From the NCBI GenBank assembly GCA_029862205.1, contig JAOTXT010000051.1, forward strand, positions 1-33,137: a stretch of DNA of 33,137 nucleotides, in the 5' to 3' direction. Source of the stretch: Paracoccaceae bacterium (GTDB taxonomy: Bacteria > Pseudomonadota > Alphaproteobacteria > Rhodobacterales > Rhodobacteraceae). The notes under the pieces are model-generated. The model was not told the origin of the DNA and ran no database searches. It saw only the letters and a list, made by a program, of their open reading frames with translations. The position numbers and the translations under genes were made by a program. Positions 17,069-21,367 of this stretch are shown here, one piece after another (position 1 is the first letter of the stretch; each line of letters starts with the position of its first letter).

Positions 17069-18109
17069 ATGCGCACCTGGAAATCGGTACTCGTGGTCGC
17101 GGCATCGGCCGCCAGCATCGCCTTGGCACCCATGGCGGCCTCGGCCGAGAGCGCGACGCTCAAGACGGCCAAGGACCGGGGCACGTTACTCTGCAGCGGC
17201 CATAACGGCAGCTATTTCGGCTTTGTCGAGGTGAACGACAAGAACGAGTGGAAGGGGCTCGACATCGACCTCTGCCGCGCCTTGGCCATCGCCGTCCTTG
17301 GCTCGCAGGACAAGGTTCAGATCGTGCCGCTCAGCTGGGCTCAGCGCTTCCCGGCATTGCAGTCGGGCGACGTGGACGTGGTCATCAAGGCGACCGGCTG
17401 GACCATGGGCCGCGATACCGAGCTGGGTCTGCAATTCTCGCTACCCTACTTCTTCGGTGGCGCTCAGATCATGGTGCGCAAGGAGCTTGATATCACGACC
17501 GCTGAAGGGTTGGACGGAGGCACCGTCTGCGTAGCCGCGGGCACCACCATCGAGCGGATCGTCGCCGACCACCTGAAGACCATCGGAATCGAACACAAGA
17601 TGGTCAGCTACGAGAAAACCGCCGAGGTGATCTCGGGCTACACCTCGGGCCGCTGCGACGCCTATGCCGCCTGGGGTCCGAACCTGGCGGTTCTGCGCGC
17701 GACCCAAATCGACGCTCCGGACGAGCATGTAATTCTCGAGGACAAGCTGAGTTCCGAGCCGATTGCCGCCGCCATGCGCCAGGGTGATGACGAGTGGGTC
17801 GATATCGTCAACTGGATGCTGGCCGCGCTGATCAAGGCCGAGGAACTGGGCGTAACCTCGGCGAATGTCGAAGAGATGACCGCCAACCCGCCCAACCCGA
17901 CGGTTGCGCGCCATTTGGGCGTCGATGCGGGCATGGGCGAGCGCCTGGGCCTGCGTGACACCTGGGCACGCGAGATGATCACGGCGATGGGCAATTTCGG
18001 CGAGATCTACGAGCGCAACCTCGGCCAGGGTTCGCCCTACAAGCTGGACCGCGGCCTGAACAATCTCTGGAGCAATGGCGGGGTTCTATACGCGCCGATC
18101 CTCGACTAG
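17069..18109 (+). CDS. aapJ: General amino acid ABC transporter, periplasmic binding protein (AapJ/BztA)
   Basis: A 346-residue periplasmic solute-binding protein of a broad-specificity L-amino acid importer. A signal peptide (about 1-26, ending ASAES) is followed by the family 3 binding domain: LCSGHNGSYFGF, EWKGLDIDLCRALA and ALQSGDVDVVIKATGWTMGR are typical of AapJ/BztA proteins, which bind glutamate, aspartate and related amino acids. The ATG has a strong GGGGAGAG site. It is the first gene of the aapJ-aapQ-aapM operon and is separated from aapQ by a stable hairpin, which usually lets the binding protein be made in excess over the permeases. Confidence 0.95.
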   Translation: MRTWKSVLVVAASAASIALAPMAASAESATLKTAKDRGTLLCSGHNGSYFGFVEVNDKNEWKGLDIDLCRALAIAVLGSQDKVQIVPLSWAQRFPALQSGDVDVVIKATGWTMGRDTELGLQFSLPYFFGGAQIMVRKELDITTAEGLDGGTVCVAAGTTIERIVADHLKTIGIEHKMVSYEKTAEVISGYTSGRCDAYAAWGPNLAVLRATQIDAPDEHVILEDKLSSEPIAAAMRQGDDEWVDIVNWMLAALIKAEELGVTSANVEEMTANPPNPTVARHLGVDAGMGERLGLRDTWAREMITAMGNFGEIYERNLGQGSPYKLDRGLNNLWSNGGVLYAPILD

Positions 18110-18129
18110 GCTCTGGCGAAAGTCGAGGG

Positions 18130-18160
18130 CCGCCCCGGATAATGGGGCGGTCCGTCTTTT
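18130..18160 (+). terminator. Intercistronic hairpin / attenuator between aapJ and aapQ
   Basis: CCGCCCC (18130-18136) and GGGGCGG (18144-18150) form a perfect 7-bp stem around GGATAAT, followed by TCCGTCTTTT. Partial termination here, plus 3'-end protection, would reduce permease expression relative to the binding protein. Confidence 0.75.
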
Positions 18161-18172
18161 CGGGGGGCCAAG

Positions 18173-19306
18173 ATGTTCGACAAGGAGCGCTGGCAGCGGC
18201 TGACCCTCTGGGATTGGATCGTTCAACTGGCTCTTGTCGCCCTGGTCGTCGTCATCGTTTGGGGCGCGATCGAAAGCGCCCGCGTCAACCTAGCGGCCCT
18301 AGGAGTGACCAGCGGGTTCTGGTTTCTCGACCGCTCGACCGGCTGGAGCTACTCCTTCGCCTTGATCGAGCAAAGCATCGACGACAGCTACGCCCGAACG
18401 CTTCTGATCGGGTTCCTGAACACTCTGCTTGTTGGTCTGATATCGATCGTGTTTGCGACGATCGTGGGCTTCATCATCGGGACAGCGCGTGACAGCCGGA
18501 ATCTGGGCCTACAGACATTCGCGGGCACGTTTGTGCAGACCTTTCGCAATATCCCGCTGATCCTGCAGATCGTGTTTCTATACTCGATCCTGATCCATCT
18601 GCCGGGGCCGAAGCAGTCGCTGACCGTCCTTGACCTCGCCTTCATGTCGAACCGGGGACTGATGCTGCCCACACCGGACCTGCCGGGCTTCGCGATTGTG
18701 CTGGGGCTGGCCGCCGCGGTTGGGCTGGGGGTGGCGGTCAGGCGCCATGTTGATGGCGTCCTGCGCGGGCTGGCGCTTGGGTTCGGTGGGACCGTGCTGG
18801 CATTGGCCCTCGTCGCCTTGGCTTTCGGACCCGCGGGCGAACCGCTTCTGTCGGTACCGCAATTGAAAGGATTGCGCTTCCGGGGTGGCGTGACCCTGTC
18901 GGTCGAATTGGTGGCGATGATCCTCGGGATCGTGCTTTACGGCTCGGCCTATATCGCCGAGGTCGTGCGCGGTGGGCTGAACGAGGTGCCGAAAGGCCTG
19001 ACCGAAGCCGGACAGGCGCTGGGCATGCATGCCTGGGCGGTGTGGTTCAAGATCAAGATGCCCATGGCCTTGCGCTCGATCATCCCGCCGCTGGGCAACC
19101 AGTGGATCTTCATCATGAAGGCCACGACGGTGGGCGTCGCCATCGGGTTCAGCGATCTCTTCTACATCGTCTCGACCTCGATCACGCAATCGGGCCAAAC
19201 CTTGGAGCTGATCTTCATCCTGATGTCGGCTTTCCTATTAGTGAATTTCACCATCGCGCAATTGGTGAACCTGTTGAACGCTCATCTGGCGCTGAAGGGG
19301 CACTGA
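18173..19306 (+). CDS. aapQ: General amino acid ABC transporter permease (AapQ/BztB)
   Basis: A 377-residue inner-membrane permease of the HisM/GlnP type. Membrane segments lie near residues 17-37, 83-104 and 125-140, then around 170-230 and in the C-terminal half. The conserved EAA-type sequence EVPKGLTEAGQALGMHAW (around 265) contacts the ATPase. The N-terminal ERWQRLTLWDW and the long loop with GFWFLDRSTGWSYSF distinguish the AapQ/BztB branch. The ATG has a GGGGGG site. It ends four bases before aapM and must act as a heterodimer with it. Confidence 0.94.
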   Translation: MFDKERWQRLTLWDWIVQLALVALVVVIVWGAIESARVNLAALGVTSGFWFLDRSTGWSYSFALIEQSIDDSYARTLLIGFLNTLLVGLISIVFATIVGFIIGTARDSRNLGLQTFAGTFVQTFRNIPLILQIVFLYSILIHLPGPKQSLTVLDLAFMSNRGLMLPTPDLPGFAIVLGLAAAVGLGVAVRRHVDGVLRGLALGFGGTVLALALVALAFGPAGEPLLSVPQLKGLRFRGGVTLSVELVAMILGIVLYGSAYIAEVVRGGLNEVPKGLTEAGQALGMHAWAVWFKIKMPMALRSIIPPLGNQWIFIMKATTVGVAIGFSDLFYIVSTSITQSGQTLELIFILMSAFLLVNFTIAQLVNLLNAHLALKGH

Positions 19307-19310
19307 GGGC

Positions 19311-20390
19311 ATGGCCGCGCCGCCCACAATGAGCCGGCTGGAATGGCTGCGCCACGAACTGACGCGACGCGCTTTTGCAACGCCCGCCGATACAGCCATC
19401 ACATTGGCGGTCGCGGCCATTCTGGCATGGTTGATCTGGCTGGACCTGGATTGGGCGGTCGTCCGGGCGGTCTGGTCAGCGGAGGCAGTCGATACCTGCC
19501 GGGCCAAGGATGCCGGTGCATGCTGGTCGGTGATCGCCGCGCGCCACCGGCTGATCCTGTTCGGGCTCTACCCCTACGAGGAGCATTGGCGCTCGACGCT
19601 GGCTTGCGGCGCGATCATCGCCACCGTCGTTCTGTCCTGCATCCCTTGGTTTTGGGCCTTGCGGCGGCTGGCAACGCTGTGGGTCACAGGGTTTGCCGGT
19701 TACTTCCTGCTGATGGAGGGTAGCCCTATTGGACTGACCCAGGTCACCACGGATCAATGGGGCGGGCTGTCGCTGACGCTGTTCCTATTCGCTTCAGTGG
19801 TACTACTCGGGATGCCGATGGGGCTTGGCCTGGCCCTGATGCGCCGCTCAAGCCTGCCGCTGGTGCAGCTCGTGGCCTCGCTGGTAATCGACTTCATCCG
19901 CTCGCTGCCCCTGCTAACGACGCTCTTCACGGCGGCGGTGGTGGTGCCGATCCTGCTGCCCGACTGGCTGCAGGGTGACAAGATCTGGCGGGTCATCATC
20001 GCTTTCGCTCTGTTCTTCGCCTGCTATCAGGCCGAGGTTTTCCGGGGTGGCTTCCAGGCGATCCCAAAGGGACAATTCGAGGCCGGCCAGGCCATGGGGT
20101 TGGGATATTGGCGGGTGTTGGCGCTAATCGCCCTGCCCCAGGTCTTCCGTAATGCGCTGCCCTCGACGATCAACATGGTGGTGATCACGTTCAAAGAAAC
20201 CGCGATCGTCGTCATCATCGGATTTTTCGATATCCTGGCCTCGGCCAACGCGGCGTTCGGAACCGGCGATTGGGCGCCCTATTACATGGAGGTCTACGTC
20301 TTCGTCGGCCTGATCTACTGGGGGTTCATCTTCTCGCTGGGGCAATACGGTGAGTATCTGAAGGACCGGATGGCGGTCGCGAGGCATTGA
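19311..20390 (+). CDS. aapM: General amino acid ABC transporter permease (AapM/BztC)
   Basis: The second permease subunit, 359 residues, starting four bases after aapQ. The C-terminal half has the conserved core: DFIRSLPLLTTLF, then QAIPKGQFEAGQAMGLGYWR (the EAA loop) and VITFKETAIVVIIGFFDILA. The N-terminal half carries AapM-type extra helices (about 22-42 and 95-128). In the Aap and Bzt operons an ATPase gene (aapP/bztD) normally follows directly; here there is only a GC-rich inverted repeat and then a convergent unrelated gene, so the ATP-binding subunit must be encoded elsewhere or shared with another transporter. Confidence 0.94.
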   Translation: MAAPPTMSRLEWLRHELTRRAFATPADTAITLAVAAILAWLIWLDLDWAVVRAVWSAEAVDTCRAKDAGACWSVIAARHRLILFGLYPYEEHWRSTLACGAIIATVVLSCIPWFWALRRLATLWVTGFAGYFLLMEGSPIGLTQVTTDQWGGLSLTLFLFASVVLLGMPMGLGLALMRRSSLPLVQLVASLVIDFIRSLPLLTTLFTAAVVVPILLPDWLQGDKIWRVIIAFALFFACYQAEVFRGGFQAIPKGQFEAGQAMGLGYWRVLALIALPQVFRNALPSTINMVVITFKETAIVVIIGFFDILASANAAFGTGDWAPYYMEVYVFVGLIYWGFIFSLGQYGEYLKDRMAVARH

Positions 20391-20948: not shown

Positions 20949-21036
20949 GTTGAACCACGATTAGTTTCCCCCTGTGGCTGAACTCACGCACTTGCAATCG
21001 CCCTCGAACGGCGCCATCTTTGCCTCCGAGTTCAAC
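20949..21036 (+). promoter_or_regulatory. Alternative stem elements ahead of micro-ORF 1
   Basis: GAGTTCAAC (21028-21036) lies just upstream of the extended ribosome-binding site. Part of it can pair with GTTGAAC (20949-20955) or, alternatively, with TGAACTC (20979-20985), each over seven bases. GCCTCC (21022-21027) is complementary to the ribosome-binding site itself, allowing a G-U pair. Mutually exclusive pairings like these are a feature of switching leaders. Short matches can arise by chance in GC-rich DNA. Confidence 0.35.
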
Positions 21037-21056
21037 CAGAGAAAGGAGGTGATCCA

Positions 21057-21113
21057 ATGTCGAGTGAGACCTTGGAGATGGTGGTGATGGGTTTGCGGGG
21101 AATCTGCCGCTAG
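21057..21113 (+). CDS. Micro-ORF 1 (18 aa leader peptide) with an extended Shine-Dalgarno sequence
   Basis: The ORF encodes MSSETLEMVVMGLRGICR and stops at TAG 21111-21113. It is preceded by AGAAAGGAGGTGATCCA (21040-21056), complementary over 17 bases to the expected 3' end of alphaproteobacterial 16S rRNA (TGGATCACCTCCTTTCT), with GGAGG placed seven bases before the ATG. Such a site should recruit ribosomes very strongly. Right after the stop, CCTCCTTTC (21121-21129) is the exact complement of GAAAGGAGG (21041-21049). I do not recognise the peptide. It may be a regulatory leader peptide for the downstream genes or a free-standing micropeptide. Translation is inferred, not shown. Confidence 0.6.
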   Translation: MSSETLEMVVMGLRGICR

Positions 21114-21120
21114 GGAGCAG

Positions 21121-21170
21121 CCTCCTTTCCGGCCGGACCGCATGAGGGGCGCATGCCTCACCGCCCGGCC
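21121..21170 (+). promoter_or_regulatory. Anti-Shine-Dalgarno element and hairpin after micro-ORF 1
   Basis: CCTCCTTTC (21121-21129) can sequester the ribosome-binding site of micro-ORF 1. It is followed at once by a two-part stem: GGCCGG (21131-21136) with CCGGCC (21165-21170), and inside it TGAGG (21143-21147) with CCTCA (21156-21160). There is no T-tract. A ribosome stopped at the TAG (21111) would cover part of the anti-Shine-Dalgarno element. Confidence 0.45.
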
Positions 21171-21307
21171 ATCTCAAGCTCACGGAAGGCCGCGTCCGCG
21201 CGGCCATCTTTGCATTTGGCGCTTGATTTCAGAGGCATGGTTGCCTGACAGGCCCACATGCAAGCATAATCGCGCAGCGGATGAAGGTGTATTTCAGGGA
21301 GAAGGTC

Positions 21308-21367
21308 ATGCGCAACGATATCCAAATCGCACAGCGCGCCGCGCGTCAAACGGAGGCCGCGCGATGA
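21308..21367 (+). CDS. Micro-ORF 2 (19 aa), translationally coupled to ppk2
   Basis: ATG 21308 has an excellent ribosome-binding site, GGAG at 21298-21301 with six bases of spacing. It encodes MRNDIQIAQRAARQTEAAR and stops at TGA 21365-21367, overlapping the ppk2 ATG as ATGA. The ppk2 ribosome-binding site GGAGG (21352-21356) is inside this ORF, so ribosomes finishing the peptide can restart on ppk2. I see no relation to a named family. Confidence 0.55.
   Translation: MRNDIQIAQRAARQTEAAR

Follow-up and report, generated by a model that had tools for sequence, protein, structure and literature searches.

A candidate alphaproteobacterial RNA gene, apparently related to CC2171, with an extended Shine-Dalgarno sequence and a short reading frame

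Why a ribosome-binding site of exceptional length should precede a reading frame of just 18 codons is the question raised by a stretch of 33,137 nucleotides from a Paracoccaceae bacterium, which is referred to as the window. The sequence AGAAAGGAGGTGATCCA occupies positions 21040-21056 of the forward strand and is directly followed by an ATG at 21057; the encoded peptide reads MSSETLEMVVMGLRGICR and ends at a TAG codon (21111-21113). A first-pass annotation had proposed both an exact 17-base complement of the 16S rRNA tail and the 18-codon ORF at these positions, and both were confirmed in the sequence. Its assertion that such a match exceeds chance also stands, since the site is the only match in the window at up to three mismatches, compared with 0.04 expected, and the 15-base core AAAGGAGGTGATCCA was found once in the 4.44-Mb draft genome. 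The 16S gene itself gave no match in the organism's own draft, where its tail is therefore unreadable. A 16S end reading CTGGATCACCTCCTTTCT was obtained from 4 of the 41 genomes searched (two of the same family, two of the same class), the other 37, including the organism's own, giving no match; the alphaproteobacterial tail assumed beforehand agrees with these four. Pairing of the 17 bases with CTGGATCACCTCCTTTCT is predicted at -30.0 kcal/mol. We take the edge of helix 45 to be the inner limit of the single-stranded tail, in which case the complement runs from there to the mature end.

As judged from its sequence, the site seems to be part of a self-contained RNA gene, some 180 nt long, with promoter-like boxes and a terminator (Table 1). 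Inspection by eye showed CTTG or TTGACA boxes in the upstream regions of relatives at about the same distance as the -35 box of the window, and in many relatives promoter-like boxes and then CAAC precede the Shine-Dalgarno (SD) sequence; a script recorded the terminator in 282 of 314 copies. The sequence CCATCTTTGC occurs twice in the window, once in the -10 region (21014-21023) and once in the terminator tail (21204-21213). In minimum-energy folds, the body of the window ORF folds onto 21169-21183, and the stability of the window fold is no greater than that of shuffled sequences (z -1.05; 29 of 200 shuffles as good).

Table 1. Features of the candidate RNA gene, in window coordinates.
Feature	Coordinates	Strand	Basis or remark
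Promoter-like -35 box CTTGCA	20991..20996	+	putative; boxes of relatives at similar distance, by eye
Promoter-like -10 box CATCTT	21015..21020	+	putative; 18 nt past the -35 box
Predicted sRNA transcript, about 180 nt	21028..21212	+	RF01867 and R1 matches; 5' end putative
CAAC block just 5' of the SD sequence	21033..21036	+	frequent in relatives; opens the RF01867 consensus
Extended SD sequence complementing the 16S 3' tail	21040..21056	+	pattern match; -30.0 kcal/mol
18-codon ORF, stop TAG	21057..21113	+	start and stop kept in relatives
5' strand of long helix (GTGAG, CTTG, AGATGG), within the ORF	21064..21081	+	minimum-energy folds
Hairpin GGAG-CAGC-CTCC right after the stop	21114..21125	+	fold probability 0.98; Rhodobacterales-type equivalent covaries
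CCTCCTTTC, complement of SD bases 21041-21049	21121..21129	+	exact reverse complement
3' strand of long helix (CCATCT, CAAG, CTCAC)	21169..21183	+	minimum-energy folds
Terminator hairpin GGCCGCGTCCGCGCGGCC, then ATCTTT	21188..21205	+	sequence, R1 match; T-run weak

The element is widespread. A blastn search with 21000-21180 gave matches in 29 of 61 genomes from several families (its own included), and a pattern of SD sequence plus start codon was detected in 75 of 385 genomes of the class with one control match, the class being taken as Alphaproteobacteria although one of the 80 loci named is a Gemmatimonadetes MAG (L098). A slightly shorter version of this pattern matched in 47 of 86 alphaproteobacterial genomes and in one (G732) among 213 from elsewhere in the phylum, as split by hand count. 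No plasmid-borne relatives were matched in one blastn search. The copy set used below, picked by SD sequence plus start codon, comprises 330 loci reduced to 319 distinct copies, 311 of them with enough downstream sequence; these copies are related, so that counts exaggerate their independence. Copy groups were defined by scripted peptide or nucleotide motifs, and the orders assigned to them are in part our presumption. That the site is a chance match devoid of function, for which its short length is the one argument, can be practically dismissed, being already contradicted by the SD-plus-start pattern, which occurs as a single copy in each of 132 genomes out of 295 of the family, with no match in the controls.

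Homology extends beyond the SD sequence. A match to the Rfam family RF01867 (CC2171) was recorded at 21033-21206, covering model positions 1-159 of 159 (E 0.0011-0.0044); because its score of 25.1 bits does not reach the gathering cut-off of 75, the element is best regarded as a probable distant relative of the Caulobacter sRNA CC2171 below the curated threshold and not as a curated member of the family. The whole model is collinear with the window element, in which both the 5' block CAAC..GAAAGGAGGUGAUCC..UGUC and the 3' terminator hairpin (21188-21205, with a weak T-run) are present. The two differ in their helix sequences, and 2 of the 7 pairs of the RF01867 closing helix UCAUUGUC/GACAAUG are broken in the window, GTGAG/CTCAC being available at a shifted place; moreover, Rfam lists the family as "Gene; sRNA", while the present element has a conserved start and stop. 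Compensatory support for the CC2171-type closing helix amounts to 8 cells, a value reached in 1 of 500 shuffles, or 3 pairs, reached in 83 of 500. At E<=0.01, RF01867 has no match in the organism's genome apart from the window element, and the cut-off was reached by 3 of 20 loci tested. Among 142 genomes of the class, 31 match at E<=0.01 and 5 reach the cut-off; of the 14 control genomes, Caulobacter vibrioides and Deinobacterium chartae match, one of them above the cut-off (presumably Caulobacter). Eleven of 34 RF01867 matches fall outside the places of the class SD-plus-start pattern: of the seven of these that were read, five carry a variant SD sequence with D-TG (L392, L404, L406, L408, L414), one (L410) sits in an apparent coding sequence, and another (L407) is without an SD block in the part scanned.

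A second model, R1, was built from 20 relatives that were selected by the SD pattern and include near relatives, the window being excluded; with nine pairs it consists mostly of sequence. Its sole match in the 33 kb lies at 21033-21211 (98.8 bits, E 2.5e-22; MSSE-type subgroup). In a scan of 14 loci out of several hundred, which yielded 15 matches, R1 also detected copies of the Rhodobacterales type, at 63.7 and 66.5 bits, and of the CC2171 type, at 42.5 and 44.4 bits or, weakly, at 18.0 and 19.3. The weak matches of 18-19 bits, including L154 and L138, were discounted because an opposite-strand match at E 0.00076 looks false. One genome (G048) harbors two copies of different types, MSHCH (L392 1501-1652, 68.9 bits with RF01867) and MSHGSA (L018). 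As far as the accessible text of the respective articles goes, MH_s33 of Mesorhizobium huakuii has been assigned to RF01867 (PMC5596092), RF01867 is among the families with a revised structure (PMC11701678), and CC2171 does not appear in three further articles (PMC5082802, PMC5988900, PMC11005374). In the part of the literature that was covered, no account of the ORF or of a 16S complement in CC2171 was recognised.

The short ORF looks real. An in-frame stop follows after 14-36 codons in 305 of the 311 copies, six being longer and none shorter than 14, as compared with 125 and 127 of 311 (about 40%) in the other two frames; the six copies exceeding 36 codons, which were retained in the count, resemble longer or ordinary genes with a strong SD sequence (e.g., L073). 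With the Rhodobacterales type excluded, the corresponding numbers are 168 of 174 in frame versus 55 and 59. The Bradyrhizobium-type copies (L131, L141, L145, and five others) have a 14-codon ORF, and their codons 5-14 are invariant among seven distinct sequences. Among 116 Rhodobacterales-type copies chosen by nucleotides, all except one have exactly 18 codons, and codon 19 is TAG in 59, TGA in 34, TAA in 22, and CAG in a single copy; TGG is absent, whereas 17.4 cases are expected under independent columns. Nor does TGG occur in the 40 copies of the Sphingomonadales type, where only 1.6 cases are expected. Since a start codon had been required in selecting the copies, the start was tested separately by a pattern lacking it, which matched in 44 genomes of the class and once in the controls: 43 of the 44 coincide with SD-plus-start places, D-TG following the SD sequence, and the 44th resembles an antisense 16S end. 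D-TG is likewise found in all 25 RF01867 matches with an SD block, five of which have an imperfect 16S complement (30 loci were scanned; L410 and the second row of L385 were dropped, and four gave no row). The codons themselves show no protein-type selection: pooled dN/dS values are 0.88 (n=137), 1.35 (n=30), 1.07 (n=42, a rough value owing to varying lengths), and 1.73 (n=9), and third codon positions show no excess variability in these four groups. In several groups, dN/dS is lower in the false frame +2 (0.61, 0.61, 0.76), which indicates constraint at the RNA level that could hide protein selection. The 17-base site and the ORF, whose comparison across relatives the first-pass annotation had called for, are conserved. 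Because start and stop are kept while the codons show no protein-type selection, the act of translation seems to be selected for and to be of greater importance than its product.

These data bear on what the element may be. If it simply encoded a functional microprotein (14-36 residues) that a strong SD sequence brings to high output, the maintenance of the ORF and the similar peptides within groups (VGT, MSHGSA, and KRCHLAGIAR types) would be accounted for, but the codons, which show no protein-type selection, would not, nor would the constancy of Bradyrhizobium-type codons 5-14 even at silent positions (7 distinct sequences), the retention of the GGAGCAGCC motif both where it is in frame and where it lies beyond the stop, or the unlike peptides of the different groups. 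We consider this reading unlikely, and the earlier suggestion of an autoregulated micropeptide is weakened on account of the codons. A slightly poorer candidate is a sponge for 30S subunits or a partner of the 16S tail, acting in hibernation or 3'-end maturation with incidental translation: the complementarity does cover the single-stranded tail up to the mature end, yet such a function needs neither a start at fixed spacing nor a TGG-free, swapping stop or a minimum of 14 codons, and five RF01867 matches keep D-TG despite an imperfect SD sequence.

The gene neighborhood speaks to a further possibility, namely a leader or attenuator acting in cis on the next gene, which would be ppk2 in the window and an ArfB-like gene in Rhodobacterales. 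In its favor, the window ppk2 begins about 160 nt past the terminator hairpin, and 116 of 138 Rhodobacterales-type copies are followed in the same orientation by a gene with an RF-1 domain, which we take to be ArfB-like. Such a gene is, however, found downstream in just 4 of 181 other copies, most loci reaching about 1.5 kb, and the organism's own arfB (G000 C8:10048, L061) lies elsewhere, with no element in the upstream stretch read, in contrast to most copies of the Rhodobacterales type. A tblastn search with the window PPK2 against the loci, most of which extend about 1.5 kb or more per side, had its matches confined to the stretch of the window itself (L001, L002, L412), and most copies have a terminator of their own. 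Upstream, a Vut_1 gene, presumably yhhQ, is present in 134 of 138 Rhodobacterales-type copies compared with 5 of 181 others, and the minus-strand gene that lies upstream in the window has a relative downstream of the L003 copy. As neighbors depend on the group and PPK2 occurs near the window copy only, the element is taken as an independent unit. The control of the downstream polyphosphate kinase envisaged in the first-pass annotation is thus not upheld, given the element's own promoter-like boxes and terminator and an adjacency to PPK2 that is not conserved; a ppk2 leader was rejected for the latter reason and a general arfB leader because that adjacency is almost confined to Rhodobacterales-type copies, which makes regulation in cis very improbable as a whole. 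Two further observations concern the window: a 19-codon ORF (MRNDIQIAQRAARQTEAAR, 21308-21367) overlaps the ppk2 start as ATGA, which suggests translational coupling, and positions 17069-20390 encode a substrate-binding-like protein and two permeases (BPD_transp_1) of an ABC transporter, beside which no adjoining ATPase gene was noticed in the ORF list.

As had been claimed, the window sequence CCTCCTTTC corresponds without mismatch to the reverse complement of the SD at 21041-21049. Relatives in the subgroup of the window hardly vary in GGAGCAGCCTC, and pairing with the SD sequence is possible in 175 of 180 cells, although an invariant SD sequence leaves no covariation to score and makes the shuffle control uninformative. 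The anti-SD extends to CCTCCTTTC in the window, L003, and L006, whose duplexes are unusually strong (z -4.7, -3.9, and -4.7, respectively), while the mean duplex z is -1.5 for Rhodobacterales-type and -0.2 for Sphingomonadales-type copies. However, in the window and most relatives the fold favors a separate hairpin (21114-21125 in the window), the 3' arm of which overlaps the proposed anti-SD: the mean probability of the anti-SD being in its own hairpin is 0.71 over 19 relatives plus the window, with 0.98 for the window, and the SD pairing probability is near 1 in 2 of the 19 relatives scored (L005, L302). In the window, SD/anti-SD pairing has a probability of about 0 if the RNA starts at 21033 and about 0.16 if it starts at 21028. 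In the equivalent hairpin of the Rhodobacterales type, both sides of the outer pair are changed in a compensatory manner in 13 of 39 sequences. Transitions make up 387 of 406 pairwise differences in the motif arms versus 1712 of 5179 in ORF columns, which is compatible with the hairpin as well as with SD pairing. When the probability of an unpaired SD sequence was compared with shuffles in two-base blocks, values of 0.05 versus 0.34 were obtained for the Rhodobacterales type, 0.13 versus 0.29 for the Bradyrhizobium type, 0.49 versus 0.28 for the MSHC/R group (which includes the CC2171-type copies), 0.54 versus 0.33 for the MSSDF group, 0.37 versus 0.31 for the Sphingomonadales type, and 0.39 versus 0.32 for the remaining copies. 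Masking of the SD sequence is therefore predicted clearly only for the Rhodobacterales and Bradyrhizobium types among the groups tested, and by other sequences; a universal gate by the anti-SD was rejected, as SD accessibility tends in opposite directions between groups.

The reading we prefer, to which we assign about an even chance, is a free-standing sRNA gene that is a divergent relative of CC2171 and at the same time a minimal mRNA, giving a translation-gated RNA that would act in trans with the peptide as a by-product. It draws on the homology, the conserved start and stop, the lack of codon-type selection, and the terminator present in most copies. That the element is transcribed and loaded with ribosomes, that it switches, and that it has a target is what we infer from these, as is the step from translation being kept to translation being the input of a regulator. 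In such a scheme, the RNA would load 30S subunits by pairing of its 5' end with the single-stranded tail of 16S rRNA, and the ribosome would read 14-36 codons (18 in the window) and halt at the hairpin. Loading and translation would keep the folded RNA body open, and an untranslated form, arising on failed capture of 30S subunits, would act differently. A role in reporting ribosome or 30S availability, as suggested in the first-pass annotation, is possible in trans rather than in cis. A tentative extension, more doubtful than not, is that this alphaproteobacterial RNA senses 30S initiation capacity, with the strongest possible SD sequence and a throw-away ORF as input and translated and untranslated forms that differ in their effects on other RNAs or ribosomes.

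Published data provide both cautions and parallels, as far as the accessible parts of the articles show. Ribosome profiling in Caulobacter found ncRNA regions to be untranslated except for two formerly predicted ncRNAs, which counts against translation of the element, and SD strength correlates poorly with translation efficiency in this organism (PMC4117421). In Sinorhizobium, a third of 54 new sORFs are located on annotated sRNAs, and most sRNAs look untranslated (PMC10117765). The extended SD sequence of rpsU in Flavobacteriales likewise represents an exceptionally strong SD sequence that reads the state of the ribosome, and the element may work in a similar way; rpsU differs in that a ribosomal protein is controlled in cis, whereas the RNA described here stands on its own, lacking both a common gene downstream and a conserved protein (PMC9976891). 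The dual-function attenuator rnTrpL/peTrpL of Sinorhizobium is also a small alphaproteobacterial RNA, with a 14-residue ORF, but it is leaderless and derives from trp attenuation, and the accessible text does not mention a 16S complement (PMC7298713, PMC10117765).

RNAs related to CC2171 thus appear to keep a start, a stop, and a complement of the free 16S tail in many alphaproteobacteria, apparently without keeping the peptide. Should the function lie in translation itself, such an RNA would take ribosome loading as its input.
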